This document shows, piece by piece, positions 5,071 to 52,737 of a DNA stretch of 64,000 bases. The stretch comes from Mesorhizobium sp. M3A.F.Ca.ET.080.04.2.1 (GTDB lineage Bacteria; Pseudomonadota; Alphaproteobacteria; Rhizobiales; Rhizobiaceae): the NCBI RefSeq assembly GCF_003952525.1, contig NZ_CP034451.1:2852001-2916000 (forward strand), written 5' to 3'. Both the position numbers and the translations under genes were made by a program. Position 1 is the stretch's first letter. Each line of letters opens with the position of its first letter. Below the pieces are notes generated by a model, which was not told the DNA's origin, did no database searches, and was given only the letters and a program-made list of their open reading frames with translations.

Positions 5071-5196
5071 ATGAAGAAATATGAGAAGCCCACACTGGTC
5101 AAGGCGGCCCGCCTGCAAGCGCTGACGGCTCAACAAGTGAGCTCCCAGCCGCCAGTGGATGATAATAGCGATGGCTCCGGTACCGACGTTAACTAG
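5071..5196 (+). CDS. Orphan RiPP precursor-like peptide (lasso-type leader)
   Basis: A 41-codon gene with a good ribosome site (AGGGGG, 9 bases before the ATG). The peptide starts MKKYEKPTLVKAARLQALTA, matching the leader pattern Y-x-x-P-x-L...T-x of lasso-peptide precursors, where Tyr, Pro and Leu contact the PqqD-like B1 protein and Thr is the penultimate leader residue. The remaining 21 residues (QQVSSQPPVDDN, then SDGSGTDVN) are polar and acidic. Cleavage after TA would give a Gln first residue with the nearest Asp at position 10, which does not fit a standard 7-9-residue lasso ring. The product type is therefore open. No modification genes adjoin it; the nearest are at 17.3-20.2 kb. Confidence 0.6.
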   Translation: MKKYEKPTLVKAARLQALTAQQVSSQPPVDDNSDGSGTDVN

Positions 5197-17317: not shown

Positions 17318-18352
17318 ATGCTGCCATCACTTTCGCCTGCCGAAGAGAAATTGCTGCTCGATTTCGCCGACCCCGAAGCGCCGGCCGGCGGGGGCCAGAC
17401 CGTTTCGGCGAGCCGTTGGATGGCCTTGCTAACAAATGCCGAGTTCCACGGCGTGCTGCCGATCATGCTGCGCAAGCTCGGCGAGCGCGGCGACGCCAAC
17501 CTGCCGGACGATGCCGCCTTGCGGCAGAAGTTGGTTGAATTGCGCGACCAGACCACACTGGCAACCGGCCAGTCCATGCTGCTGCAATATCATGGCGACC
17601 GCGTCATGAAGGCTCTGGCGGCAAGAGGCGTTCCGGCGCGGATCGTCAAGGGACCGGTCTTCGCGCGCAAGCTCTATCGCCATGCCGCCGACCGGCCGTT
17701 CACCGACATCGACATCCTGGTCGACCCGACCAGCATCGGCGAAGCCAACAGCGTGATCGCCGAATGCGGCTTCAAGCTTGCCAGCGGCGAGGCCAAGTCG
17801 CACGACCTGCAGGAATTCAAATGGCTGGAGAACGAGAATTCCAGCCTGCTGATCGAACTGCATGGCAATCTGGTCCATGATTCAGGCATGCGCCGACGCT
17901 TGTCGCTCGGCTTTCGCGAGCTGCGGATCATCGACGGCGACGAACCCGACAGCCCGGCTTCGCTGCTTACCATCGCCATCGTCCATGCCGCCGGGGGTCA
18001 CAAATTCCATCGGCTGCAGCTTTGCGTCGACGTGCTGCAGGGCGTGCGCGCGCTGCAATCGCCGGAAGCGGAAGCGCGCCTGCTGGAGGCGGCGTGGATG
18101 ACCGGCATCGAGCTCGAGTTGGCTACCGTGCTCAACGTGACCGGACATCTGTTCGACATGCCGCGGGCGATCGAGCTAGCCGGCCGCATCAAGCCGGATC
18201 TGGCGATACGTGTGGCCAAATGGCTGATCACGGGGAACATGCTGCTTCGCGTGAATTCGAAAGAGAAGATGCGCTCCCGTCTGAGCCGCGATGCGTTCCG
18301 CTGGGTGCAGAGGCTGGCCCGGCCAAGGCCCTATTTGGCCTCAGGCCGATAG
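17318..18352 (+). CDS. Nucleotidyltransferase-fold protein of a lasso-type gene set
   Basis: A 344-residue protein of the NTP_transf_5 type. The nucleotidyltransferase core is RIVKGPVFARKLYRHAADRP followed by FTDIDILVDP, whose D-x-D pair would bind metal. Such genes recur in lasso-peptide clusters with HPrK-like kinases (paeninodin, pseudomycoidin), where they are implicated in decorating the peptide. A second family member is at 42324. It converges with the kinase-protease-PqqD operon at 18462-20166, so it probably belongs to the same system. Confidence 0.75.
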   Translation: MLPSLSPAEEKLLLDFADPEAPAGGGQTVSASRWMALLTNAEFHGVLPIMLRKLGERGDANLPDDAALRQKLVELRDQTTLATGQSMLLQYHGDRVMKALAARGVPARIVKGPVFARKLYRHAADRPFTDIDILVDPTSIGEANSVIAECGFKLASGEAKSHDLQEFKWLENENSSLLIELHGNLVHDSGMRRRLSLGFRELRIIDGDEPDSPASLLTIAIVHAAGGHKFHRLQLCVDVLQGVRALQSPEAEARLLEAAWMTGIELELATVLNVTGHLFDMPRAIELAGRIKPDLAIRVAKWLITGNMLLRVNSKEKMRSRLSRDAFRWVQRLARPRPYLASGR

Positions 18353-18365
18353 AGTTCGCCGGAAA

Positions 18366-18466
18366 CGTCGCGCTGAAACGGCTTCAGCCGACGCGCTTTT
18401 CGGCTTTGTTTCTACGCATGTCGTCGCCCCAGAACCGCTACACACTCCTGGACGACATGCATTAAC
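18366..18466. repeat. Dispersed intergenic repeat, copy 1
   Basis: The sequence GTCGCGCTGAAACGGCTTCA, then GACGCGCTTTT, GCATGTCGTCGCC, AGAACCGCTACACACTCCTG and GACGACATGCATT parallels 53944-54045 block by block. It lies between two convergent genes. The outer GCATGTCGTC and GACGACATGC can pair. Confidence 0.8.
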
Positions 18467-19448
18467 GAGCCAGCGCAGCAAGGATCAGAGCCGCTGCGTC
18501 CGCCGGGCTTGCGCCCACTTCGAGTGTGAAGGTCGGCACGGCTTTGACAAGCGCGGCGATTGTCGCCATCCGCCGTTTCTGCATCGCCAGCAGGCCGGTC
18601 ATGCCGGTCCTGACATTGTCGGCGGCTAAAGCCACCATGGCGTCGGTCCTCGCCATGGGTATGAGCCTGGTCTGGCCGTCGGCGGCGCGGGCGAGATGAA
18701 GCAGTGCCGCGACCGGCCGGGCACCGGCATCCTCGATGCGGATAATTTCCTTCAGCCGCTCCAGTGACACGGCCTGCTCGCCGTTGCCGTCCCATTGGCC
18801 ACCGAGGCAGGGCAAGACGAAGGGCAGCATCGCGGCCGTGTTGCGGTGGATTTTTGCCGCGCGCGGCAGCCCCCAGGCCAAAGGCGCTGATGAGGCGGCG
18901 TCGACGATCATGGCATCGTCGGAGCAGAGGCCAAATCCTTGCGACGTCAGCGCCAGCGATGTCGTCGATTTGCCGGTTCCGCTCGGCGCATGGATCAGGA
19001 TCACGCCGTCGCGATCCGGCAGCGTCAGGCCGGCAGTGTGCAGCATATGCTGGCTACCGGCGTCGAGGGCGGCGTCGAGCGCCAGCATCCCCAACGTCCA
19101 GAGGACCCTCGCGCCTGCCAGAACCCGGATCTCGGCCTTGGCATCGGCGGCGTGAATCGCGGCGGCCTGCCGACCCGGGAAGATCAGATGGAGGGCCGAG
19201 CCGGCATCGATCATGCGGCAATGGCCGTCGAGCGGCACCTCGCCGTCGAAGGCGAGCGAACCTTCCGGCGCTTCGTCCAGGGATTGCGTCTCGCTGATGC
19301 TCAGCCTGAAGCCCGGCTTTGCCGGCGCCGCCAGCCGCAAGCTGCCAAGCATGGCCTCGAAATCCCGCCAGAGCTCGGGGCGCGGTGCATCGACGCCAAA
19401 GACGCGGCCATTGAGATCATAGCAGACGGAAGCGGCCGATGCGGTCAA
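18462..19448 (-). CDS. HPr kinase-like protein (RiPP tailoring kinase type)
   Basis: A 328-residue protein. The C-terminal two-thirds resembles HPr kinase/phosphorylase: Walker A in HAPSGTGKSTTSLAL and a metal/Walker B-like LCSDDAMIVD. The N-terminal domain is lineage-specific. Related proteins in lasso clusters phosphorylate the C-terminal Ser of the precursor (PadeK of the paeninodin cluster). The likely start is TTG 19448, which overlaps the TGA of the upstream B2 protease gene as TTGA and suggests translational coupling. The substrate here is unknown. Confidence 0.8.
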   Translation of the reverse strand: MTASAASVCYDLNGRVFGVDAPRPELWRDFEAMLGSLRLAAPAKPGFRLSISETQSLDEAPEGSLAFDGEVPLDGHCRMIDAGSALHLIFPGRQAAAIHAADAKAEIRVLAGARVLWTLGMLALDAALDAGSQHMLHTAGLTLPDRDGVILIHAPSGTGKSTTSLALTSQGFGLCSDDAMIVDAASSAPLAWGLPRAAKIHRNTAAMLPFVLPCLGGQWDGNGEQAVSLERLKEIIRIEDAGARPVAALLHLARAADGQTRLIPMARTDAMVALAADNVRTGMTGLLAMQKRRMATIAALVKAVPTFTLEVGASPADAAALILAALAR

Positions 19449-19879
19449 GCTGGCTTCGCCCTGGCAGTGCCGGCGTGGTGGCGGTAGATCTCCACCATGC
19501 CGGGCAGGCTGTCGCTGACCACCGGCTTATCGTCCAGACAGACCCAGCAATGCGCCGACAGGCGCGGTTCCTGCATCGACTTGGCATCGACACCGAAACG
19601 CAGGTCCGGATCAAAACCCGCCATGCGCAGGAAACGGAACCCGAGCAGCCCTTCGCGCAGACATCTGCGGTCGCGCATCAGCCAGGGGTGCCGGACCGTG
19701 CGGTTGACGCTGGCGACGATGTAGGCCGACGGCAGGCCACGATAGGGCGTCGGCGCCTGGAGCGGCGCCCATTTGAGCACCGTCTCGAAGTCACGCTGGC
19801 CAATCAGGACCGGCATCAGCCGCGCGCTCAGCCACAGATGAAGGCGAAACAGCGCGCGCAGGAACGGTCTGTCGGCCAT
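19445..19879 (-). CDS. Lasso-type leader peptidase B2 (transglutaminase-like)
   Basis: A 144-residue protein of the lasso-peptide B2 (transglutaminase-like cysteine protease) family. The catalytic Cys is C73 (DRRCLREGL) and the His is H110 (LSAHCWVCLDD), with the usual spacing. With a PqqD-like B1 protein it cleaves leader peptides after the penultimate Thr. Its ATG overlaps the TGA of the pqqD-like gene (ATGA). No cyclase is present in this set, so it may act on an unlinked precursor such as the one at 5071, or be a relic. Confidence 0.85.
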   Translation of the reverse strand: MADRPFLRALFRLHLWLSARLMPVLIGQRDFETVLKWAPLQAPTPYRGLPSAYIVASVNRTVRHPWLMRDRRCLREGLLGFRFLRMAGFDPDLRFGVDAKSMQEPRLSAHCWVCLDDKPVVSDSLPGMVEIYRHHAGTARAKPA

Positions 19880-20166
19880 CAGGCGCCCGGGTCGGCGAGG
19901 ATGCCTTCGGCCACCAGTTCGGCCGCCAGTTCGGCCATATCCTGGTCGAGCGTGTCCCTGGCGACTTCGAATTCATCCGACAGCAGGCCGACGATCTGGT
20001 CGAGGCTGCGTGCGCCGTCGACCTTGTCGAGAAAGGCCTCGGTGGTGCCGTTGCAAGTGTAGAGCTGGCCGCTGCGCGCCAAAAGCACGACCGCGCCGTC
20101 TCCGACATGCTGAACGGACGCGTCGTCCGCCAGGCGCAGCACCGTTTCAGAGGCGATTTCGACCAA
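19879..20166 (-). CDS. PqqD-like RiPP recognition protein (B1)
   Basis: A 95-residue PqqD-fold protein, the RiPP recognition element that binds the leader peptide and presents it to the B2 protease. Its pattern is VLRLADDASVQHVGDGAVVL, then SGQLYTCNGTTEAFLDKVDG and helices to the C-terminus. No ATG is available: the start is TTG 20166, supported by GGAG seven bases upstream and by a stop 13 codons before. It is first in a tightly overlapping operon (pqqD, B2, kinase). I searched 20167-20640 on the reverse strand for a leader motif and found none. Confidence 0.8.
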   Translation of the reverse strand: MVEIASETVLRLADDASVQHVGDGAVVLLARSGQLYTCNGTTEAFLDKVDGARSLDQIVGLLSDEFEVARDTLDQDMAELAAELVAEGILADPGA

Positions 20167-41221: not shown

Positions 41222-42253
41222 TTATTCCCTTGCCGCGGCGGCCGTTGCGGCGCCGGTCGCCGCCAGCAGGAAACGCATCGCCGGCACGGGCTGGCTGCGA
41301 ACGATGCCGGCCTTGCGGAACAGCGCATCGAGCTTGTCGGCGGCGACCCCGCGAACGATCGGAACCAAATTCGATTGGCTTGCGAAAGCGTAGGCGGCAG
41401 CCGACGCCAGTCCGCGCTCGGCCTTCACGTCGAGGAAATTGCGCAGCCGATATTTGTCGCGCACATGGCGTTCGTGCCGCCGCAGCGCGGCCTTCGAGGC
41501 TTCCGGCAGGTCGCGGATCGCAAGCAGCGCCAGGTCTGCATCCGCGAGGCGCTGCAGATCCTGCGTCCTGTGGCGGCCGCTCAGCGAATCGGCGCGGACG
41601 ATCGCGCCGTAGCCGCAGGACTTGATGACCTTGAAGCGCGCGCCGCAGGCGACAGCGCGAGCATAGAGCTCGTAGTCCTCGCCGAGCCGCAGGTTCTCGT
41701 CGTAGCTCAGCCCATGGCGGTCGAGAAAGGCCCGACTGATCACCGGCTTGAGGAAGCCCAGTTCGCCGCGCAGGACCCGGCGCCGCGAGATGTTGCCGTC
41801 AACGAACCGCTCGAAGTCGAGAAATTCCGGATCAGCCGCAAAGGGCGGCGCGGCAAGCCCGGCAACGTCGGTCGCGGCGTCGTCCCTGATCAGCATGATG
41901 TTGTCGGCCGCAAAATCCCAGTCGGCAGCGGCGAACAGCCGGCGAAAGCGTCCCTCGAGAAAGAAGTCGTCGGCATCGAGGATGCTGATGTAGGGCGATC
42001 GGGAAGCCTTGATCGCAGCGTTGCGGGCAAAGGAAGGCCCTCGGTTGACGTCGAGACGGATGACCGAGAGCCGACCGCTGCCATCGTCGGCGGCGCTCGC
42101 CGCAGCTTGCGTATCGTCGGTGGACGCATCGTCCACCACCACGACCTCCGCCACTTCCGCTTCGCGCAGCGCCGAAGCGATGGCGACCGGTATGGTCCGC
42201 GCCGCGTTGCGGGCAGCGATGATGACGCAGACCCTGGGGGTCGTCACAGGCAT
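41222..42253 (-). CDS. exoU: Family 2 glycosyltransferase, ExoU-like
   Basis: A 343-residue GT2 enzyme: MPVTTPRVCVIIAARNAART, VVVDDASTDDTQAAASAADD, RLDVNRGPSFARNAAI, the D-x-D region SILDADDFFLEGRFRRLFAA, and GEDYELYARAV. This closely follows the ExoU pattern, the glucosyltransferase adding a late glucose of the succinoglycan side chain. ATG 42253 starts the conserved region. In S. meliloti exoU neighbours exoX; here the lasso cluster lies between them. Confidence 0.85.
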   Translation of the reverse strand: MPVTTPRVCVIIAARNAARTIPVAIASALREAEVAEVVVVDDASTDDTQAAASAADDGSGRLSVIRLDVNRGPSFARNAAIKASRSPYISILDADDFFLEGRFRRLFAAADWDFAADNIMLIRDDAATDVAGLAAPPFAADPEFLDFERFVDGNISRRRVLRGELGFLKPVISRAFLDRHGLSYDENLRLGEDYELYARAVACGARFKVIKSCGYGAIVRADSLSGRHRTQDLQRLADADLALLAIRDLPEASKAALRRHERHVRDKYRLRNFLDVKAERGLASAAAYAFASQSNLVPIVRGVAADKLDALFRKAGIVRSQPVPAMRFLLAATGAATAAAARE

Positions 42254-42323
42254 GAATTCACCTTTCAATCTGCATGTGTGACTGCCAATCCCGCCCGGGA
42301 ACAATGCAAGAGATCAATAGCCA

Positions 42324-43475
42324 TCAGCGGCCTCGCGTCGGTTCGGCGGCGGGCCGCTCAAAAATGCGGCGGCTGAGGTCGGCAGAGGCGGCCCAGCCTG
42401 CCTCGGCCAGGTAGCGGACCGGCTCGCGGCCGCAGAGCTCCCACAGCATCGTTCGCCGCTGCGGCCAGCGCAGCGATGCCAGCCAAGGCGCGATCACCAT
42501 GTGGAAGAGGTCGGCATTGTCGATGCGCGCCAGTATTCGCTTAGCGCGGTCCGAGAGCAGCGTGTCGGCGGCGCCGAGCAGCACATCGGCTGCGCGCAGG
42601 CCCAGCAACAACGTGTCGGTCAGACCCTGCGCGGCCGCATGGTCGAGCACTTCCTGTTGTTCAGCCTCGCTCAGTCGGCTGGCGCTGGCGCGGACATCGC
42701 AGACATAGCCCGCGCAGGGCTCGCGATTGAAGAACGCCTTGGCGACGCTGATGCAGGACAACAGCAAGGTGTCGCAGGCCGAGATGACCGGCATGGAGGC
42801 GCCTGCGACCTCCACCTGGCGCCTGCGGCGCAGGAAGCCGTCGGTGTCGCGCGGGCTCGGCGAGCCCGGCTGCTGCAGCCGATGGTGAAGGTCCACCGTC
42901 GACGGCCGCGCCCCATCATGGCGCACCATGTGCTGCTCGCCAAGGAAACGCACCCACCAGATCGAGCGCGACTTGCCCGCGATTTCATAGCCCGCCGATC
43001 GAAGCGCTTGCCGGGCTGCGATAAAGCCGGCCGGCGGCACCAATATGTCGACATCGCCTGACGGTTTCATGAAATGATCGCCATAGAGCAACTGCTGCTG
43101 AAACGGACCTTTGAGGAAGACAAAGTCGACCTGCCGTTCGCGCAGCACCTGGTGGATGGCTATCGAATCGCCGATGCATGCCGCGTTCATCGAAACGGTG
43201 CGCCGGCGATAGCGATCGAGCCAGGCAGGGAGCTCCGGCGGCGTCGCGGCAGCCGGAGCGCGCGCGAGCGCCTTGAGCACGAACACAGCCACCTTGTTGA
43301 GCCTGGCGACGTCGGCGACGCGCGTCGCCGAAATGGCCGGAGCCGGCATTTCGGCACTGCCTGCGGGGCCGGCCCCAGGCGTGAAGAACAGCCTCAGGCA
43401 GGCCTGCACAAAAGCGACTTCGTCGGCGCAGCCGGCGACGCGGAGCCTTTCATACGATTCATCCTGGACGGCCAT
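42324..43475 (-). CDS. Nucleotidyltransferase-fold tailoring protein of the lasso cluster
   Basis: A 383-residue protein of the same NTP_transf_5 type as 17318: FVFLKGPFQQQLLYGDHFMK followed by PSGDVDILVPP, with the D-x-D metal pair. Such genes travel with HPrK-like kinases in paeninodin/pseudomycoidin-type lasso clusters and are implicated in adding groups to the phosphorylated C-terminus. It is divergent from the precursor gene across a 471-bp shared region and 70 bp upstream of exoU on the reverse strand. ATG 43475 is preferred over an upstream extension. Confidence 0.78.
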   Translation of the reverse strand: MAVQDESYERLRVAGCADEVAFVQACLRLFFTPGAGPAGSAEMPAPAISATRVADVARLNKVAVFVLKALARAPAAATPPELPAWLDRYRRRTVSMNAACIGDSIAIHQVLRERQVDFVFLKGPFQQQLLYGDHFMKPSGDVDILVPPAGFIAARQALRSAGYEIAGKSRSIWWVRFLGEQHMVRHDGARPSTVDLHHRLQQPGSPSPRDTDGFLRRRRQVEVAGASMPVISACDTLLLSCISVAKAFFNREPCAGYVCDVRASASRLSEAEQQEVLDHAAAQGLTDTLLLGLRAADVLLGAADTLLSDRAKRILARIDNADLFHMVIAPWLASLRWPQRRTMLWELCGREPVRYLAEAGWAASADLSRRIFERPAAEPTRGR

Positions 43476-43946
43476 GCCTGTCCTAGTCTCCGCAACAAAA
43501 ATGCAATATCGCAACTGCGAAGAAGCATCGTAAAAAACGGCCCGGCCGTCCAGTCATTCCGTCGCCACACCCGTCTTTTGCAACCGCCGCGTTCAAAATT
43601 ACCCGTAGCGCGATCACATTTGAAAACAGGCCGGCGGGCTGACCCGGCTCAGCAGCAATTCTTCTCGCGCATGTAATCAAGCCAGGCCGCTCAAAAGGAT
43701 TACATTAGTTAAATCAGCTAATTGGCCCCACTGCCAATGCGGGGCCCTGAACTGCCGACTGGCGCAGGCCTGGGATAAGAATATGAACGGATCGGTCGCC
43801 GTCCCAGAGCGAATGCAATCGATAGTTGACGGATAAATGATCAATCAGACTTGACTCATAAATGCTGCCGTGCAGCAATCGCGCTGCAGCATAGCGATGT
43901 GCTGGCGACAGTCAAAACCCGCTTCCAGTCGGAGTTGGAGACTAAA
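43476..43946. other. Divergent regulatory region of the lasso cluster
   Basis: A 471-bp gene-free region, more AT-rich than its surroundings, separating the nucleotidyltransferase gene (reverse) from the precursor gene (forward). It contains the exo-type motif at 43862-43878. On the reverse strand near 43485-43515 is a diverged relative (GTTGCGATATTGCAT) with a longer spacer. No other open frame is convincing. Confidence 0.6.
43862..43878 (+). promoter_or_regulatory. Shared exo/lasso motif upstream of the lasso precursor
   Basis: The forward strand reads ATGCTGCCGTGCAGCAA, differing from the exo copy ATGTTGCGGTGCAGCAA at two of 17 positions. It ends 68 bp before the precursor ATG. An inverted partial copy (GCGCTGCAGCAT) follows at 43881-43892. 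Confidence 0.55.
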
Positions 43947-44099
43947 ATGGAACAGAATGTGGAGAAGCAGGAGTACGAGACTCCCAGCCTGACGGTTCAT
44001 GGTTCGATCGAAACCATCACCCAGGGCGGCGCTGGCACGACGGCGCTCGACGCGGCATTTCCCGCGCACACGCCGTTCGACCAGCTCACGTTCTCCTGA
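43947..44099 (+). CDS. Lasso peptide precursor (A gene)
   Basis: A 50-residue precursor. The leader MEQNVEKQEYETPSLTVHGS then IETITQ has the lasso pattern Y-x-x-P-x-L-x(3)-G...T-x: Tyr10, Pro13, Leu15 and Gly19 contact B1, and Thr25 is the penultimate leader residue. Cleavage after Gln26 gives a 24-residue core starting GGAGTTALD, so Gly1 and Asp9 would close a nine-residue macrolactam. The tail is AAFPAHTPFDQLTFS, with Phe and His available as plugs and a C-terminal Ser. GGAG lies 8 bases before the ATG. An upstream in-frame extension is not used. Confidence 0.9.
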   Translation: MEQNVEKQEYETPSLTVHGSIETITQGGAGTTALDAAFPAHTPFDQLTFS

Positions 44100-44105
44100 G
44101 CTGCT

Positions 44106-44140
44106 TGCGCCCGGGGTGCGACGTTGGGGCTCCGGGCGCA
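44106..44140 (+). terminator. Attenuator hairpin after the precursor gene
   Basis: TGCGCCCGG pairs perfectly with CCGGGCGCA, followed by GTTTTCT, seven bases after the precursor stop and 114 bp before pqqD. It would partly end transcription so that precursor message exceeds enzyme message, a common layout in lasso clusters. Confidence 0.7.
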
Positions 44141-44253
44141 GTTTTCTGGAACTCCGGGGAGTCCCCGGTTTTCTGCCCCGGCTCCTCGACGGCAACCGAT
44201 GGTCGCGGTTTCGGTCTGACGACATAACAGCGTTCAACGAGCGAGGTTTTAGG

Positions 44254-44553
44254 ATGCACTGGAACCCATCGGACCATGATCTCGTGAGCGCGACCGGGGA
44301 TGCGGTGGCCTGCGAGTTCGGCAACGGGCTGGCGCTGCTCAACCTGAAATCCAACATCTACTACAGCCTGAACAGCGTTGGAGCCTACATCTGGGAATTG
44401 ATCCAGGAGCCGCGCTCCATCCTGGATATCCGCAATGCGGTGCTGACGCGCTATGACGTCGACGTCGAACGCTGCCGGGCGGATGTCGAGGGCCTGCTGA
44501 AGGGACTGACCGAAGCAGGGCTTGCGAGGCTCCATCATGAGGAACTGGTCTAG
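44254..44553 (+). CDS. Lasso peptide B1: PqqD-like leader-binding protein
   Basis: A 99-residue PqqD-fold RiPP recognition element. After MHWNPSDHDLVSATGDAVAC it has the beta segment LALLNLKSNIYYSLNSVGAY followed by helices IWELIQEPRSILDIRNAVL and a C-terminal helix VEGLLKGLTEAGLARL. It binds the Tyr-Pro-Leu leader motif and delivers the precursor to B2. ATG 44254 is chosen; the open frame extends upstream through the attenuator without meaning. Its end overlaps the B2 start by 17 bp. Confidence 0.88.
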   Translation: MHWNPSDHDLVSATGDAVACEFGNGLALLNLKSNIYYSLNSVGAYIWELIQEPRSILDIRNAVLTRYDVDVERCRADVEGLLKGLTEAGLARLHHEELV

Positions 44554-44953
44554 GCTCCGCACGCTGAGCCGGCCCGAAATGCTGTTCCTGGCGCACTGCC
44601 TTGCCGTGGTCGCGGCGGTGCGGATCGGCTTGACGGTGTCTTCCTACAACCGCATCCGCGATCTGGTGATCCGGCTGGACGCGCGGGGGGCGGCCAGCGT
44701 CGCCGACCTAAGGCGCGTCGCCTGGGGCGTCGTCGCCGCCGCACGGATCGTGCCCGGCGCCAGCTGCCTCACCCAGGCCCTGGCCGGACAATACCTGCTG
44801 GCCCGCCAGGGCAGCGCCTCTAATATCCGCATCGGTATCGAGCGCGATACGGGCGCCGAGTTCAGGGCGCATGCGTGGCTGATCAGCAGCAACCAGATCG
44901 TGCTTGGCGGCTCGATCGCCGGGTTTGCGCATCTCGCCGACCACGGGCAATAA
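44537..44953 (+). CDS. Lasso peptide B2: leader peptidase
   Basis: A 138-residue transglutaminase-like cysteine protease with catalytic Cys77 (PGASCLTQALA) and His112 (FRAHAWLISSN), spaced as in McjB C-terminal/B2 proteins. It removes the leader to free the core N-terminus for cyclisation. ATG 44537 lies inside the end of the B1 gene, with GAGG upstream; a TTG at 44522 is an alternative. The cyclase gene starts two bases after its stop. Confidence 0.9.
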   Translation: MRNWSRLRTLSRPEMLFLAHCLAVVAAVRIGLTVSSYNRIRDLVIRLDARGAASVADLRRVAWGVVAAARIVPGASCLTQALAGQYLLARQGSASNIRIGIERDTGAEFRAHAWLISSNQIVLGGSIAGFAHLADHGQ

Positions 44954-44955
44954 CG

Positions 44956-46860
44956 ATGAGCGGGCTGGCCGGAATTCTGCTGAGGCGGGACGACAGGTCG
45001 GCGGTGGCGGCCGATATCCAGCGGATGCTGGCCCGCCTGCACCATCGCGCGCGGGACGGCAGCTCATGGTGGACCGATGCAGGCGTGGCGCTTGGCAACG
45101 CCTGGTTCAACACGACGGACGAGCCAGGTCCCGGCCCGCTGACGATGGCCGCGGGCAAGCTCGCCGTCACCGCCGATTGCCGGCTGGACAACAGGGACGA
45201 GCTGGCGGCGCGGCTCGGCCTTGGCGATGGCTCGACCGGTGACACCATGCTGGTGATGCAGGCCTATTTGCGCTGGGGCGAGGATTGCCCCAGCCATCTG
45301 CAGGGCGATTTCGCCTTCGCCATCTGGGACGGCGAGCGCCGGGCGTTGTTTTGCGCGCGTGATCATTTCGGCGTCAAACCGTTCTACTACCATTCAAGCG
45401 GCGAGCGCTTCGCGTTTGCCTCCGAAATCGGCCCCATCCTTGCCCTGGAGGGTGTCGGGACAGGTCTCAGCGAGCATCAGATTTCCGGCTTCCTGGCCGG
45501 TCTGCCCGATGACCCGCAATCGACGCATTATGCCGACATCTTCCGCCTGCCGGCGCGCCACAGCCTCACGGCGATGGAGGGCCGACTGACGCTGCGCTGC
45601 TACTGGCAGCTCCAAGCCTCGCCAAGGCCGCCCCGCGCGGATGCGGCGGAAGAGTTCGCGCATCTTTTCTCGCGGTCGGTGCAGAACCGAATGCGGGGCA
45701 CGCCGGCCGTCGGCGCGATGCTGAGCGGCGGCCTCGATTCGTCCTCGATCGCCTGCGTCGCGGCGGAACGCAAGCCAGGGCTCCGGACCTTCTCGCTGGT
45801 CTTCGAAAAGGGCTCGCCGATGGACGAGAAGCCGTTCATCGACGCCGTGCTGGACCAGCGCCCGGTCGACGGCACGCTGATTGGCGTTGGCGACTATGCG
45901 CCCTTCGCCGAATTCGAACGTATCCTGGAAGAGCAGGAGGGAACGTTTTTGGCGCCCGGCCTGTCCTTGACCCGCAGCATTTATCGCACCGCCGGCTCCA
46001 AGGGCGTCAAGGTGCTTCTCGACGGCCATGGCGGCGACGAGGTCGTTTCGCAGGGCCATGGCCTGCTGCACGAACTCGCCGATGCCGGCAGATGGACGGA
46101 GCTGTGGCGGGAACTGCGTGGCGCCTCCGCCACCTATGGCGAGGGCATGCTCGCCATGTACTGCAAATTCCTGGCCAGATACGGCCCGGCGCGGCGGATT
46201 GCGAAGCTGAAAGGCCGATCGAACAGAGCGCTGGCGAGGCTGCTGGGGAGGCCGCCGCAGCCGCGCGAGCCGGCGTGGGGCAGACTGGTCAATCCGGACC
46301 TTGCCCGGCGCACCGATCTTGCCGACCGTTTCCACCGCGCCGGCGCCATGCCCGCCGGCGTCAGCGCCAACGAGGCGCTCACGCATCGCTGGATCCTGTC
46401 CAGCGGCCTGGTGCCGCACGCTTTCGAGGTGCTCGACAAGGCGGCGGCCAATTTCGGCGTCGAACCGCGCTACCCGTTCTGGGACAAGCCGCTGGTCGAG
46501 TTCTGCCTCGCGCTGCCCGGCGAGGAAAAACTGCGCAACGGCTTCGGCCGCTACGTGCTGCGCCGGGCCATGGAGGGCGTGCTGCCGCCGGTGGTGCAAT
46601 GGCGGCGCGACAAGATCGACTTCACCGCCAATCTGGTGAACGGCATGCTCGGGAACCATCGTGAGCTTCTCGACAAGGTGCTGGTGTGCGACGGCGGCCG
46701 CATCGCACCCTACGTCAATCTGCCTGAGGTCACCGCGGCCTATGCGCGCCTGCTGCGGCAGCCCGAGCGGGCCTCGCCGCGCGACGTGCAATATGTCTGG
46801 CGCTCGACCTCGCTGTCGCTCTGGCTGCGCCAAATCCAAAACAGCGGAAACGTTGCATGA
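44956..46860 (+). CDS. Lasso peptide cyclase C (asparagine synthetase-like)
   Basis: A 634-residue asparagine-synthetase homologue. The N-terminal glutaminase-like domain starts MSGLAGILLRRDD, with Ser where the glutaminase Cys2 should be, so ammonia release is not expected, as in lasso cyclases. The synthetase domain has the pyrophosphate motif SGGLDSSSIA near residue 258 and GHGGDEVVS. It adenylates the Asp9 side chain and drives attack by the Gly1 amine while the tail is threaded. ATG 44956 is two bases after B2; the stop overlaps the kinase gene start (ATGA). Confidence 0.92.
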   Translation: MSGLAGILLRRDDRSAVAADIQRMLARLHHRARDGSSWWTDAGVALGNAWFNTTDEPGPGPLTMAAGKLAVTADCRLDNRDELAARLGLGDGSTGDTMLVMQAYLRWGEDCPSHLQGDFAFAIWDGERRALFCARDHFGVKPFYYHSSGERFAFASEIGPILALEGVGTGLSEHQISGFLAGLPDDPQSTHYADIFRLPARHSLTAMEGRLTLRCYWQLQASPRPPRADAAEEFAHLFSRSVQNRMRGTPAVGAMLSGGLDSSSIACVAAERKPGLRTFSLVFEKGSPMDEKPFIDAVLDQRPVDGTLIGVGDYAPFAEFERILEEQEGTFLAPGLSLTRSIYRTAGSKGVKVLLDGHGGDEVVSQGHGLLHELADAGRWTELWRELRGASATYGEGMLAMYCKFLARYGPARRIAKLKGRSNRALARLLGRPPQPREPAWGRLVNPDLARRTDLADRFHRAGAMPAGVSANEALTHRWILSSGLVPHAFEVLDKAAANFGVEPRYPFWDKPLVEFCLALPGEEKLRNGFGRYVLRRAMEGVLPPVVQWRRDKIDFTANLVNGMLGNHRELLDKVLVCDGGRIAPYVNLPEVTAAYARLLRQPERASPRDVQYVWRSTSLSLWLRQIQNSGNVA

Positions 46861-47849
46861 CCGCCTCGACCGCTGCTCTCACCGCCACGACCGCGCAGGA
46901 TGCCGCGCGCGGCAGCGGGCAGCGCGCGCGAGTCCGCCGCTTCTACAAGGCCTATGGGCTGACGATCGGTTCGGAGATGGCGCTGCCGGAGCTCGAACCG
47001 ACGCCGCCGGCGGCGCCCGATATCGTGATTGCGGTCGGCCCGGTCGACGTTGCCAGGCCTGACGCAGAAGGTGGGTTCGCTTTCCGATTCGGGCCGACGC
47101 GCCAGTATCTCTCGTGGCCGGCCGTCGGCAGCTTCATGATTACCGATGCCGCCAGGATCGACGTCGACCCTGCGCCAGGCATTGATGATCCGCTGCTTGC
47201 CTTTCCGCTGCTCGGGCCCGTGCTGGCGCTGCTGCTGCACCAGCGCGGCCTGCTCATCCTGCACGCCAGCGCTATCGCCGTCGGCGACGGCGGCGTGATC
47301 TTCATGGGCGACAAGGGCGCCGGCAAGTCGACCACGGCAGGCGCGATGATCCGCACCGGCCACCGGCTGCTGAGCGACGATGTGGTGGCGCTGGATCTGT
47401 CCAGCCCGGGACGGCCGATGATCCTGCCGGGCTTTCCGCAACTGAAGCTCGCCGCAGAGGCTGCCGACGCTATCCGGATCGGCCAGGCAGAGGTGCGGCC
47501 GCCGGTGCATCCGCAGATCGAAAAGACACAGCATCGCTTGCGCGAAGGATTTTCGTCAGCCCCGGTTCCGGCGGCCCGGATCTATATCCTGCAGCGGGGT
47601 GAAAGGGCGGAGATCTCGCAGCTGCCGAGCGCCGGCGCGCTGCCGGCGGTGATCAAATTCTCCTATGTGACGCGGTTCGGCCGGCTGGCGCTGGGCGGCG
47701 ATCTTGCGTCCACTCATCTGCACCACTGCGCCCAGCTCGCCGGCACCATCGGGATCCGTCGTCTCGGAGTGCCGACCGGCCTCGAGCGACTCGAAGAGGC
47801 CGTCGCTCTGATCGAAAGCGATGTGGCGGCCGGCGCGAGGAAGGGGTGA
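46857..47849 (+). CDS. HPr kinase-like tailoring kinase of the lasso cluster
   Basis: A 330-residue protein. The N-terminal 100 residues are specific; the rest is an HPrK/P-like kinase with Walker A in FMGDKGAGKSTTAGAM and LLSDDVVALDL. Homologues in paeninodin-type clusters phosphorylate the C-terminal Ser hydroxyl of the precursor before cyclisation. Here the precursor ends in Ser, which fits. It is not the housekeeping HPr kinase, which lacks this N-domain and lies with PTS genes. Overlaps with cyclase (ATGA) and exporter (GTGA) mark tight coupling. Confidence 0.85.
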   Translation: MTASTAALTATTAQDAARGSGQRARVRRFYKAYGLTIGSEMALPELEPTPPAAPDIVIAVGPVDVARPDAEGGFAFRFGPTRQYLSWPAVGSFMITDAARIDVDPAPGIDDPLLAFPLLGPVLALLLHQRGLLILHASAIAVGDGGVIFMGDKGAGKSTTAGAMIRTGHRLLSDDVVALDLSSPGRPMILPGFPQLKLAAEAADAIRIGQAEVRPPVHPQIEKTQHRLREGFSSAPVPAARIYILQRGERAEISQLPSAGALPAVIKFSYVTRFGRLALGGDLASTHLHHCAQLAGTIGIRRLGVPTGLERLEEAVALIESDVAAGARKG

Positions 47850-49753
47850 GCAAGGGCATGGCCTGGCCTCCGAAGCTGCGCCTGTCGGTTTTTCGGGATG
47901 TCGCCGGTCTCGGCGCCGTCGTGGCTGAGATCGGCGGCCGGCGCACCGCAACGGCTCTGATCTTCCTGATCCTCGGCAGCCTGACCGAAGGCATCTCGAT
48001 CCTGCTGCTCATTCCGCTGCTGCATCTGATCGGCAATGCGGACCGGGACTTCGCAGTGCGAATGCCCGACATTCCCGTCTTGCGATGGCTGACGCCGGAG
48101 GGAACGCTCTCGCTCGCGACGGTGCTGTGTCTGCTGGTCGGACTTGTCGCGCTGCAGGCGATGTTCAACCGCTACAAGTCGCTCTACATGGCGCGGCTGC
48201 TCTACGACTTCGTCAATCGTGTGCGGTTGAACCTGTTCGAAAGTATCGGCAGGGCACGCTGGGGCGTCTTCATCCGCATGCGGAGCTCCGATCTCGATCA
48301 CGCGCTCACCGGAGACATCGACCGCGTGCAGGCGGCGGCCTTCTCCCTGCTGATGCTGGCGCAGACCGCACTGCTGCTTAGCGGCTATCTCCTGGTGTCG
48401 CTGTTCATCTCGCGGGTGATGACCTGCTTCGCCATTCTCATCGGTATCCTGCTGTTCATCGCGCTGCAGCCATTTCGCGCGCGCGCCAGCGCTTACGGAC
48501 GGATGCTGACCAGCCGCCGGCAGGATCAGTACCGCACGGTCTCCGAGTTCCTGGGGGGCATCAAGGTGGCGAAGAGCCTGAACGTCGAGGCCAGTTATTT
48601 CGCCGAGCTGCGCGCAACTCTGGACCGGATGAAGACCGACAACATCGCCTATGCCCGCAACAGCACCGTTGCCACCGCCTTGTTCCAGGTGACATGCGTG
48701 ATCGGCCTCAGCCTGTTCATCTACGTCGCGCTTGTCCGCGTCCGCCTGTCGCTGGCCGACATCGTCGTGCTGCTTCTGGTGTTCATGCGGATAGCGCCGC
48801 GCTTCATGGACATCCAGACGCAGGCGCAGCAGTTGCTGATCAACCTGCCGGCCTACGCATCCATGCAAAGCCTGCAGGCACATTTCGATGCCGAGCGCGA
48901 GCCGCAGGATGGCGGAGCCGCACCAGGCGCAGGGCTGTCGCTCGACAGCGGCCTCGAGCTGCGCGGCGTTTCGTTCGCCTACGGCGACAGCAAACCGGTG
49001 GTGAAGGGCATTAGCTTCAGCCTCCCGGCCGGTAAGGTGACGGCGCTGATCGGCCCGTCCGGATCTGGCAAGAGCACAATCGCCGACATGCTGCTCGGCC
49101 TGCTCGAGCCGACGGAGGGAATGATCCTGGCCGACGGCACCGAGATTACGACGGAGAACCGCAGAGCCTGGCGCGAACAGGTCGCCTACGTGCCGCAGGA
49201 TGTCTTCCTGCTGCATGACACGATCGCTGCCAATCTTCGGCTGGCGTCGGCGCGTGCCAGCGACGACGAACTCTGGGCGGCATTGCGCAGGGCGCATGCG
49301 GCGGACTTCATCGGGCGGCTCGAACGCGGGCTGGAGACGGTGGTGGGCGATCGCGGCGTCAGGCTCTCCGGCGGCGAACGCCAGCGGATAGCGCTGGCGC
49401 GGGCGCTGCTGCGCAAGCCGTCGCTGCTCATCCTCGACGAGGCGACGAGCGCGCTCGACTGGCAGAATCAGTCGCTGATCGCCGAATCGATCGACGGGCT
49501 GCGCGGCCAGATGACAATCCTGACCATCGCCCACCGGCCGTCGATGATTGCCTTCGCCGACTGGGTCGTGGCGATCGACAACGGCAGCGTCGTCGAAGTC
49601 GGTCAGTATCGGCAGCTGAAAGCCGAATCCGACAGCCGGCTGGCCAGGATGCTTTGGGGCGAGCGGACCGACCGCCAAGCCGCCACCGGCGCCGAGAGCG
49701 GGCCGGCACCGAAACCTACCAGGCCATCAGTGGAGGCTGCGCCTGGCGCCTAG
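47846..49753 (+). CDS. ABC exporter D of the lasso cluster
   Basis: A 635-residue half-transporter: an ABC transmembrane domain of about six spans (residues 30-320) and a nucleotide-binding domain with Walker A IGPSGSGKSTIADML, signature LSGGERQRIALARALL and Walker B LLILDEATSALDW. It exports the mature lasso peptide and gives self-immunity, working as a homodimer. It begins at GTG 47846 within the kinase stop. The TAG stop coincides with the outer end of a palindromic repeat. Confidence 0.92.
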   Translation: MSKGMAWPPKLRLSVFRDVAGLGAVVAEIGGRRTATALIFLILGSLTEGISILLLIPLLHLIGNADRDFAVRMPDIPVLRWLTPEGTLSLATVLCLLVGLVALQAMFNRYKSLYMARLLYDFVNRVRLNLFESIGRARWGVFIRMRSSDLDHALTGDIDRVQAAAFSLLMLAQTALLLSGYLLVSLFISRVMTCFAILIGILLFIALQPFRARASAYGRMLTSRRQDQYRTVSEFLGGIKVAKSLNVEASYFAELRATLDRMKTDNIAYARNSTVATALFQVTCVIGLSLFIYVALVRVRLSLADIVVLLLVFMRIAPRFMDIQTQAQQLLINLPAYASMQSLQAHFDAEREPQDGGAAPGAGLSLDSGLELRGVSFAYGDSKPVVKGISFSLPAGKVTALIGPSGSGKSTIADMLLGLLEPTEGMILADGTEITTENRRAWREQVAYVPQDVFLLHDTIAANLRLASARASDDELWAALRRAHAADFIGRLERGLETVVGDRGVRLSGGERQRIALARALLRKPSLLILDEATSALDWQNQSLIAESIDGLRGQMTILTIAHRPSMIAFADWVVAIDNGSVVEVGQYRQLKAESDSRLARMLWGERTDRQAATGAESGPAPKPTRPSVEAAPGA

Positions 49754-50714: not shown

Positions 50715-51392
50715 ATGAGGGACGTCGCCAAGTCGGCCAATGCGGGCTTTTCGCATGCCGGCATTGATTTTCCACCCCCTATCGGCGGCCTGCTCAAACG
50801 CAGTTTCGATATCGTCGGTTCTCTGGCCGGCCTGGTCCTGCTCAGCCCGCTGTTCCTGATGGTCGCCCTGCTGGTCAAGCTTTCCGACCGGGGCCCGATC
50901 TTTTATGGCCATAAGCGAATCGGCCGCGGCGGAAGGATTTTCGCCTGCCTGAAATTCCGCACCATGGTGCAGGATGGCGAGCGGGTGCTGGCCGCGCATC
51001 TGGCCGCCAACCCGGATGCCAAAGCGGAATGGCTCGCGACGCGCAAGCTGAAGAACGATCCGCGCGTGACGCGTGTCGGCCAGGTGCTGCGCAAGCTCAG
51101 CCTCGATGAACTGCCGCAGATCATCAACATCCTGCAGGGCGACATGAGCCTGGTCGGACCGCGCCCTGTCGTGCGCGACGAGCTGGAGATCTACGGCAGC
51201 GCCGCGGTCTATTACCTGAAGTCCCGGCCGGGCCTGACCGGCCTTTGGCAGGTGAGCGGCCGCAACGACGTGTCCTATGACAGCCGCGTCGCGTTCGATC
51301 GCCACTATGTCGAGAACTGGTCGATGGTCGAGGACATTCGCATCATCGTAAAGACCGTGCCTGCCGTGTGGATGTCGCGCGGCAGCTATTGA
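50715..51392 (+). CDS. exoY: Undecaprenyl-phosphate galactose phosphotransferase ExoY
   Basis: A 225-residue bacterial sugar transferase that starts the repeat unit by placing a sugar-1-phosphate (galactose in S. meliloti) on undecaprenyl phosphate. It has one N-terminal membrane helix (SFDIVGSLAGLVLLSPLFLM), then the cytoplasmic catalytic part with KFRTM, the KLSLDELPQ segment and GDMSLVGPRPV, ending KTVPAVW. The short single-helix form is the ExoY type rather than WbaP. A GGAG lies upstream. exoF follows 58 bp later. Confidence 0.94.
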   Translation: MRDVAKSANAGFSHAGIDFPPPIGGLLKRSFDIVGSLAGLVLLSPLFLMVALLVKLSDRGPIFYGHKRIGRGGRIFACLKFRTMVQDGERVLAAHLAANPDAKAEWLATRKLKNDPRVTRVGQVLRKLSLDELPQIINILQGDMSLVGPRPVVRDELEIYGSAAVYYLKSRPGLTGLWQVSGRNDVSYDSRVAFDRHYVENWSMVEDIRIIVKTVPAVWMSRGSY

Positions 51393-51450: not shown

Positions 51451-52737
51451 ATGGGGCCAACACGGATCGGAAGCGTTCATTTGAAAAACCATCCCTTCGG
51501 AATTCTTTCCAAGGCGCCCAGCCGATTCGCGGCTGCGGCGCTTGCGATGTCTCTGCTGACGCCGCAGATGGCGGCGGCCGGGGAATATCGCCTCGGGCCG
51601 CAAGACAAGCTCAACATCCGCGTCGCCGAGTGGCAGACGGTCGACGGCACGTTCCGCGACTGGTCGGCGATCAACGGCGACTACTCCGTCGGCCCGGGCG
51701 GAACGCTGTCAGTGCCGTTCGTCGGCGACATACAGGCGGCCGGCAAGACGACGTCGGAAATCGCGGCGGCGATCGGCCTGTCGCTGCAGCGCAAGCTGGC
51801 GCTGTCCGACAAGCCGGAAGCCTCGGTCGAAATGGCGCAGTTCAGGCCGTTCTACATCTCGGGGGAAGTGCAGAACCCCGGCCAGTTCCCCTATGTGCCG
51901 GACCTGACGGTGCTGAAGGCGCTCAGCATCGCCGGCGGGATCCGACGCAATGTCGACTTTGGTCCGCAGGTCGCCAAGGACCTGGTCACCGCCAAGGGCA
52001 GTTTCGATATCTATGACGACCAGCGGCTGCGGCTGCTCATCAAGCGCGCCCGCATCGATGCGGACCTCGCCGGCAAGGCGAGCTTCGACGTGCCGAAGGA
52101 GGTCGAGGGCGATCCGAGAGTGCCGGCGATCGTCGCCGACGAAATGCAGATCCTGACGGCTGACCAGAAGGCGCTGAAGCTGAAGCTGGACGCGCTCGAC
52201 GACCTGAAAGCGGTTCTGCAAGGCGAAGTCGAATCGCTGCAGAAGAAGATCGTCAACCAGCAGCAGCAGGTGGATCTCGCGCAGCAGCAGCTCACCAGCA
52301 TCGGGCCGCTGGCGCAGAAGGGCTTGGTCGCCAATGCGCGGCTGCTCGATTCGAAACAGTCGGTGGCCGACCTGCAGGGCAAGATCCTGGACTATGAGAC
52401 GGCTGTCCTGACCGCCAAGCAGTCGATCAGCAAGGCCGAGCAGGACGCGATCGATGCCCGCAACACGCTTAACTCCAACCTGGCCGCCAGCCGGCAGCAG
52501 GCCGAAGCCGACCTGAACGAAGCGACGCTGAGGGCAAGCATGCAGAAGGGCCTGATCGCCCAGGCATCGGACCCCGCCACCACGGCCGCCATCACCGGCA
52601 GCGAAGAACCGGCCCTGCTTTACTCGTTGGTGCGGGTTGCCGACGGCAAGACCAGCGAAATAGACGCCAAGGAAGACACGCCGGTGCTGCCGGGCGACGT
52701 GATCAAGGTGAAGCTGGCGCCGACGGCCAGCCAGTAG
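51451..52737 (+). CDS. exoF: Exopolysaccharide export protein ExoF
   Basis: A 428-residue periplasmic/outer-membrane-associated export protein. The signal peptide ends in LLTPQMAAAG. A polysaccharide-export (Poly_export/SLBB) part follows: YRLGPQDKLNIRVAEWQTVD, then VPFVGDIQAAGKTTSEI and YISGEVQNPGQFPYVPDLTV. A long coiled coil covers about residues 230-370 (LKLKLDALDDLKAVLQGEVE). It forms the exit route with ExoP and ExoQ. ATG 51451 is chosen; an in-frame TTG at 51481 is possible. Confidence 0.9.
   Translation: MGPTRIGSVHLKNHPFGILSKAPSRFAAAALAMSLLTPQMAAAGEYRLGPQDKLNIRVAEWQTVDGTFRDWSAINGDYSVGPGGTLSVPFVGDIQAAGKTTSEIAAAIGLSLQRKLALSDKPEASVEMAQFRPFYISGEVQNPGQFPYVPDLTVLKALSIAGGIRRNVDFGPQVAKDLVTAKGSFDIYDDQRLRLLIKRARIDADLAGKASFDVPKEVEGDPRVPAIVADEMQILTADQKALKLKLDALDDLKAVLQGEVESLQKKIVNQQQQVDLAQQQLTSIGPLAQKGLVANARLLDSKQSVADLQGKILDYETAVLTAKQSISKAEQDAIDARNTLNSNLAASRQQAEADLNEATLRASMQKGLIAQASDPATTAAITGSEEPALLYSLVRVADGKTSEIDAKEDTPVLPGDVIKVKLAPTASQ

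Follow-up and report, generated by a model that had tools for sequence, protein, structure and literature searches.

A kinase-bearing lasso peptide cluster in a surface-polysaccharide locus of Mesorhizobium and a cyclase-free gene set in the same window

Lasso peptide clusters of the paeninodin and pseudomycoidin type, together with the SyanA/SyanK system, combine a leader-binding protein (B1), a leader peptidase (B2), a cyclase (C), an HprK-like kinase and an exporter with a precursor whose core ends in Ser; the pseudomycoidin cluster also has a nucleotidyltransferase. The kinases PadeK, ThcoK and SyanK, the last of them proteobacterial, place phosphate on the precursor's C-terminal Ser, some of them several times, and PsmN decorates the phosphoserine with one or two hexoses (PMC9266682, PMC8498205). 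Linear polyphosphorylated peptides (LPPs) come from cyclase-free Bacillota clusters with a ribosomally synthesised and post-translationally modified peptide (RiPP) recognition element (RRE), an HprK-like kinase, a nucleoside triphosphate (NTP) transferase, an MsbA-like exporter and an SpI-like peptidase, and they often adjoin paeninodin-like lasso clusters in capsule loci (PMC13381572). According to this 2026 paper, both paeninodin-type lasso peptides and LPPs have unknown roles, and patchy spread hides their history. Here we describe a lasso cluster in a 64,000-nucleotide stretch (the window) at positions 2,852,001 to 2,916,000 of NZ_CP034451.1, the 6.17-Mb single-contig genome of Mesorhizobium sp. 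M3A.F.Ca.ET.080.04.2.1. Judged by gene content, this cluster is real and complete and joins the kinase-bearing lasso clusters already known, sharing with them B1, B2, C, kinase, exporter and Ser-ended core and, with the pseudomycoidin cluster, the nucleotidyltransferase. The cluster consists of N on the minus strand (42324-43475) and A, B1, B2, C, K and D on the plus strand (43947-49753):

42324..43475, minus strand: N, divergent NTP_transf_5 nucleotidyltransferase (PF14907, 128.9 bits, cut-off 31.2)
43947..44099, plus strand: A, lasso precursor of 50 residues, leader (1-26) MEQNVEKQEYETPSLTVHGSIETITQ, then core (27-50) GGAGTTALDAAFPAHTPFDQLTFS
44105..44168, plus strand: GC-rich hairpins in the spacer between A and B1
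44254..44553, plus strand: B1, PqqD/RRE leader-binding protein (PF05402, 68 bits, cut-off 23.4)
44537..44953, plus strand: B2, transglutaminase-like leader peptidase (NF033537, lasso_biosyn_B2, 66 bits, cut-off 33)
44956..46860, plus strand: C, asparagine-synthetase-like lasso cyclase (NF033535, lass_lactam_cya, 734.6 bits, cut-off 525)
46857..47849, plus strand: K, HPr-kinase-like precursor kinase (PF07475, Hpr_kinase_C, 35.5 bits, cut-off 33.3)
47846..49753, plus strand: D, ATP-binding cassette (ABC) exporter (PF00005, PF00664)

All of these reading frames are open, and every gene lies where the initial annotation had put it when it described a 50-residue precursor with a lasso leader, a PqqD-like B1, a transglutaminase-like B2, a cyclase lacking Cys2, an HPrK-like kinase, an ABC exporter and a divergent nucleotidyltransferase. 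Precursor A exceeded the cut-offs of two NCBIfam models, lasso_cyano (NF033528; 33.8 bits, cut-off 33) and lasso_leader_L3 (NF033521; 23.5 bits, cut-off 19), in both cases via the leader only. B1 scored clearly above the cut-off for PF05402 and matched the lasso PqqD models below theirs, and family models likewise bore out the peptidase, cyclase, kinase and exporter. The start/stop overlaps proposed from B1 to the exporter hold at three of the four junctions (B1/B2, C/K and K/D); between B2 (stop 44953) and C (start 44956) there is instead a two-base gap. The order N-A-B1-B2-C-K-D is the same in seven of eight fetched relatives, the eighth being a 4.5-kb contig in which A to K are visible and which ends before N and D. 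The description of the cluster as apparently undescribed stands for experiments, in that our searches of the lasso, kinase, rhizobia and exopolysaccharide literature found no experimental characterisation of it in the extracts returned. It does not stand for annotation, since NCBI automatic naming already labels orthologues "lasso peptide" and lasso clusters with a kinase have been the subject of papers.

Cys77 and His112, the two residues named for B2, occur in 85 of 85 aligned B2 proteins. Twelve residues after the catalytic His112, Gly stands in all 85, at a place where other lasso peptidases have Asp, and the third catalytic residue of B2 may differ from theirs. C begins Met-Ser-Gly in nine of nine sequences, so that Cys2 is absent, and its SGGLDSS loop is invariant in the same nine; the solved structures nearest to it by sequence are asparagine-synthetase-type amidotransferases. 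In K, His136 and Lys157 are kept in 87 of 87 aligned kinases, and Asp174 and Asp175 each in 86. These are the residues reported for lasso-precursor kinases (PMC10368454), and the solved structures nearest to K are HPr kinases. For N the nucleotidyltransferase assignment holds with an amended start: the gene could open at TTG 43514, and ATG 43475 is more likely the start because this codon, Met14 in TTG numbering, is kept in 68 of 77 sequences. Asp154 and Asp156 (same numbering) are present in 77 of 77. By sequence, N had no match in the PDB; a model built from 22 sequences (mean predicted local distance difference test score, pLDDT, 83) found nucleotidyltransferases as its best fold matches and the CDP-ribitol-binding protein FKRP among the next, which would weakly support a nucleotidyltransferase at fold level.

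A profile built from nine precursors gave 117 homologues of A, in a search that requires shared five-residue words and is biased to query-like sequences. The proposed leader/core boundary was borne out, with Thr(-2) in all 117; Pro at -14 and Gly at -8 are also in all, and the leader motif starts with Tyr in 116. A 24-residue core and a C-terminal Ser are found in 108 homologues. Among these 108 cores the ring ends are kept (Gly1 in 97 and the predicted ring closer Asp9 in 107), positions 2-8 are variable, and at none of the ring positions is Ser or Thr conserved. The tail has near-fixed blocks F12-P13, T16-P17 and L21-T22-F23-S24, with Phe12 in 106, Pro13 in 103, Thr16 in 107, Pro17 in 101, Leu21 in 102 and Thr22, Phe23 and Ser24 in 108 each. 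The nine homologues lacking a 24-residue core include six that add one to three residues past TFS, two cut or altered records (P0029 and P0095) and one unlike the rest of the family (P0117). Our own exact core was absent among the 104 distinct 24-residue homologue cores, and the core end GDLTFS, common in the family, had no match in the searched literature that also names lasso peptides. The ratio of nonsynonymous to synonymous substitution rates (dN/dS), calculated from 46 coding sequences (the window and 45 loci; 44 distinct), was 0.093 overall, 0.008 for leader residues 10-26, 0.464 for ring positions 2-8, 0.137 for tail positions 10-24 and 0.010 for residues 21-24. These values and the residue counts indicate a precursor design of fixed leader, variable ring and near-fixed tail. 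A chance or decayed open reading frame is ruled out by the purifying selection on A and by the family-model matches. As to the plug, the initial annotation had proposed Phe or His. Phe12 and Phe23 are the better-fitting candidates, whereas His15 is a poor one because that position is mostly Gly (73 of 108; His in 23).

The locus carries what marks a lasso cluster, a leader for an RRE with Thr(-2), Asp9 and B1, B2 and C, its threaded isopeptide product being predicted. It also carries what marks a phosphorylated lasso peptide, the kinase His/Lys/Asp/Asp set and the C-terminal Ser, the phosphate being predicted. It falls outside the strict paeninodin clade, defined by a WxxP leader Trp and a Bacillota origin: the named relatives are Mesorhizobium and the leader residue is Tyr, whereas the RREs of paeninodin clusters prefer Trp and reportedly occur in Bacillota only (PMC13381572). 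The Bsf lasso cluster of Bradymonas has the same seven gene types, and phosphorylation there is aided by B1; it differs in having Ile at leader -2 and phosphate on Ser3, where our precursors have Thr at -2 and the conserved candidate Ser24 (PMC10368454).

We consider it highly probable that the cluster makes a phosphorylated lasso peptide by the usual route, and we propose for it a surface role tied to polysaccharide. By homology with described systems, B1 would grip the YxxPxL leader, B2 would cleave after Thr(-2)-Gln(-1), and C would activate Asp9 and join it to Gly1, giving a 9-residue ring and a 15-residue threaded tail. Before cleavage, K would most likely transfer phosphate to the precursor at the hydroxyl of its C-terminal Ser24, N would probably then put a sugar or nucleotide-linked group on the Ser24 phosphate, and D would send the product out. 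Phosphorylation of Ser24 is likely because K keeps the reported active-site residues. The assignment of K to Ser24 and of N to its phosphate is transferred from PadeK, ThcoK, SyanK and PsmN, which act in this way.

The neighbourhood of the cluster is a surface-polysaccharide locus. Flanking the cluster are:

41222..42304, minus strand: glycosyltransferase family 2 (PF00535)
50715..51392, plus strand: bacterial sugar transferase (PF02397, 217 bits)
51451..52737, plus strand: polysaccharide export protein (PF02563)

The surrounding part of the window also encodes a Wzz/kinase-type protein, glycosyltransferases, a polysaccharide synthesis protein that we take to be flippase-type, a UDP-sugar dehydrogenase and a GH16 enzyme. 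All 45 named loci (44 titled Mesorhizobium and one 'Bacterium M00.F') have relatives of the glycosyltransferase, sugar transferase and export genes in their fetched flanks, and 44 have a relative of the GH16 gene there as well. L038 and L039, from two other genera, also have the sugar transferase and export genes in the flank, with the glycosyltransferase in L039. In a draw of 61 genus genomes, which overlaps in part with the named loci (for example G155:C67 and L042), 46 have lasso K and 46 a strong match to precursor A. Weak precursor matches lie in two genomes without lasso K, at G406:C1:4814286-4814363 (E 2.5e-4) and G410:C63:204767-204865 (E 1.6e-5), and are excluded from that count. A plasmid search for relatives gave three records, all under 60% identity. 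Given the near-fixed tail, the freer ring, the wide genus spread and a constant position among polysaccharide genes, we infer a long-lasting housekeeping or surface function linked to exopolysaccharide, not a fast-changing, strain-specific bacteriocin. An association with capsule or polysaccharide loci recurs here in another phylum, genus-wide and fixed in place, and the fixed setting makes the role testable genetically in culturable Mesorhizobium. As side observations, five cyanobacterial or acidobacterial candidates (L087, L088, L089, L092 and L093) have a core tail FP..TP..D followed by VTFS or LTFS, or by VTLS in L092; in these candidate precursors the lasso tail motif extends past Alphaproteobacteria.

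Several observations weigh against this reading or its parts, beginning with the fact that the case is built wholly on sequence. For B2, two of the three catalytic residues, Cys77 and His112, were identified. The fold search with the N model returned nothing at E ≤ 0.001 (best E 1.8e-3), with TM-scores by query length of 0.22-0.35 among the top 20. In a draw of 394 family genomes the cyclase exceeded the family cut-off in nine (our own included), six of them in the genus; raw cyclase matches (249 of 394 at E ≤ 0.001, and 9 of 14 control genomes) reflect asparagine-synthetase kin and were not used. The precursor matched in one genome of a class-wide draw of 385, our own, and in none of the other 384, so that the broad distribution applies to this genus. 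With regard to the site, BsfK phosphorylates core Ser3 (PMC10368454), and in many cyanobacterial kinase-bearing loci the best precursor candidate lacks a terminal Ser; the site is therefore not set by kinase type. TFS is followed by one to three residues in 6 of 117 homologues and so is not kept merely for Ser being last. K might act on another residue, such as Thr22 or a ring Ser or Thr, with the TFS end kept for export or target binding. The Ser3 precedent, the conservation of TFS even off the C-terminus and that of Thr16 (107 of 108) and Thr22 (108 of 108), about like Ser24, agree with such a site, but we judge it unlikely: BsfA has a terminal Asp where these precursors have a terminal Ser in 108 of 117, PadeK, ThcoK and the proteobacterial SyanK phosphorylate the C-terminal Ser, and the ring has no conserved Ser or Thr position.

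Many lasso peptides are antibacterial, and the variable ring (dN/dS 0.464 at positions 2-8) is as expected with a changing target. The product could be an ordinary narrow-spectrum antibacterial lasso peptide, and its genes could have stayed in the polysaccharide locus by an old accident of gene order, linkage inside one genus being mostly one inheritance. We find this doubtful, though worth entertaining, given a tail almost invariant across genera, a cluster common in the genus, sugar transferase and export genes flanking two loci of other genera too, and related Bacillota clusters that also sit in capsule loci (PMC13381572). A silent or decayed cluster that yields no product is very improbable in view of the open frames, kept active-site residues and purifying selection, even though the bsf cluster is reported to be silent in laboratory culture (PMC10368454) and the native pba and lpp clusters are transcribed, yet their product went undetected (PMC13381572). 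The phosphorylated, polysaccharide-linked lasso peptide remains our preferred reading. Beyond the initial annotation go the conserved Ser24 as the likely phosphorylation site, the polysaccharide setting and a cyclase-free second gene set. A specialist would find the fixed setting surprising, and likewise this partner set with its matched tiny precursors.

The second set lies at 17318-20166 of the window and consists of B1_2, B2_2 and K2 with a divergent N2, without a cyclase:

17318..18352, plus strand: N2, NTP_transf_5 (PF14907, 91.8 bits)
18462..19448, minus strand: K2, HprK-like kinase of its own clade
19445..19879, minus strand: B2_2, leader peptidase (NF033537, 72.6 bits, cut-off 33)
19879..20166, minus strand: B1_2, PqqD/RRE protein (PF05402, 42.6 bits)

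K2 matched the HprK_rel and hpr-ser models far under their cut-offs and no Pfam model at E 1e-4. The key residues are kept, the Cys and His of B2_2 in 11 of 11 sequences, the His, GK(S/T) and DD of K2 in 11 of 11 and the DxD of N2 in 10 of 10. In a tree of 33 rows, from which a 30-residue fragment (L074) was left out, the kinases of the two sets split into two clades with 100/100 support. This split, together with 27% identity over 62 residues between the B2 proteins, rules out a recent copying of the first set as the origin of the second. K2 was found in 24 of the 394 family genomes (E ≤ 1e-10) and in 44 of the 61 genus genomes; in the latter draw 43 genomes have both lasso K and K2, three lasso K only, one K2 only and 14 neither. 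In nine non-genus carriers, K2 has B1_2 and B2_2 next to it in all nine, and N2 is present in eight. Their 18-kb neighbourhoods gave no match to C (E 1e-3), and five of the nine neighbourhoods contain relatives of exporter D at some distance from the set. In the window, no D relative lies beside the second set.

A family of micro-open reading frames (micro-ORFs), termed A3, pairs with this set. Their leader pattern is YxKPxLxKRGKLxAxTA, and small frames such as MKKTYEKPLLSKRGKLGAITAQSVTMIWVPSSD were seen beside four second sets. One lies in the window, has a lasso-like leader and is a probable substrate of the second set:

5071..5196, plus strand: micro-ORF of 41 residues, A3 family (lasso_leader_L3, 18.8 bits, just under the cut-off of 19)

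The A3 profile was built from 20 seed micro-ORFs of 29-41 residues, seven of them from our own genome. The seeds come from five genomes (G000, G264, G235, G177 and G038), all second-set carriers, and the test is circular for those five only. In the family draw, where up to 20 candidates were scored per genome, micro-ORFs were found in 24 of 24 K2 carriers versus 1 of 370 genomes without K2, the sole such genome having one weak match (G045:C21:19611-19688, E 2.3e-4). The genus draw gave 44 of 44 carriers versus 0 of 17 non-carriers, among the matches listed. Fisher values for this co-occurrence disregard kinship. Carriers have 4-13 matches each in the genus draw and 1-15 among the other family-draw carriers, and our own genome has seven, one of them in the window. 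A micro-ORF lies within 10 kb of K2 in 10 of 18 non-genus carriers, the listed matches of the other eight lying elsewhere, and within 1 kb in at least two genus genomes (G314 and G394).

The best 120 of 475 micro-ORF protein homologues have Thr(-2) in 119, Ala(-1) in 120, a Ser or Thr within core positions 1-6 in 119, and core lengths of 8-17 residues (21 in the window's own). Many homologues are named 'putative RiPP precursor' or 'lasso RiPP family leader peptide-containing protein' by NCBI. That they are lasso peptides was rejected as unlikely, because these cores are short and an acidic residue stands at core 7-9 in only four of the 120 listed. Four mismatch genomes show that the micro-ORFs track K2 and not lasso K, and exclude them as substrates of the lasso cluster alone: G423, G434 and G445 have lasso K and neither K2 nor micro-ORF, and G428 has K2 and six micro-ORF matches without lasso K. 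The second set is probably, though with some reserve, a cyclase-free RiPP machine that would act in trans on dispersed tiny precursors, cutting the leader and phosphorylating and perhaps glycosylating the linear core, and so would represent a proteobacterial equivalent of the LPPs with a B2-type peptidase and many substrates. This predicted pairing of enzymes and substrates can be tested.

With the LPPs the second set shares a discrete RRE, an HprK-like kinase, an NTP transferase, the lack of a cyclase and the proximity, among polysaccharide genes, of a lasso cluster with a kinase. LPPs have an SpI-like (archaeal-type) signal peptidase where this set has a B2 cysteine peptidase. Their precursors are of 35-200 residues with one to three per cluster, whereas those of the second set are of 29-41 residues, several per genome and mostly dispersed. 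LPP clusters also have an MsbA-like exporter; beside the second set in the window there is no D relative, and five of the nine non-genus carriers have one elsewhere in the neighbourhood. The archaeal-type signal peptidase model TIGR02228 had no match in our own genome and matches in 8 of 14 control genomes; with this model unmatched and a B2 peptidase in its place, we do not file the second set as an LPP. About half of the almost 8,000 discrete lasso RRE hits of RRE-Finder lacked a peptidase and a cyclase and were called possible false positives (PMC7470986). Second-set-like systems may explain part of these lone lasso RREs.

A minor feature of the lasso cluster is the spacer between A and B1, where the hairpin at 44154-44168 has a T-rich tail; two such sites were found in the kilobase analysed, versus 1.1 expected from shuffling. 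The spacer hairpins differ in sequence among relatives (20 of 46 spacers shown folded). They are possibly a partial terminator or mRNA stabiliser, and could set the ratio of precursor to enzymes.

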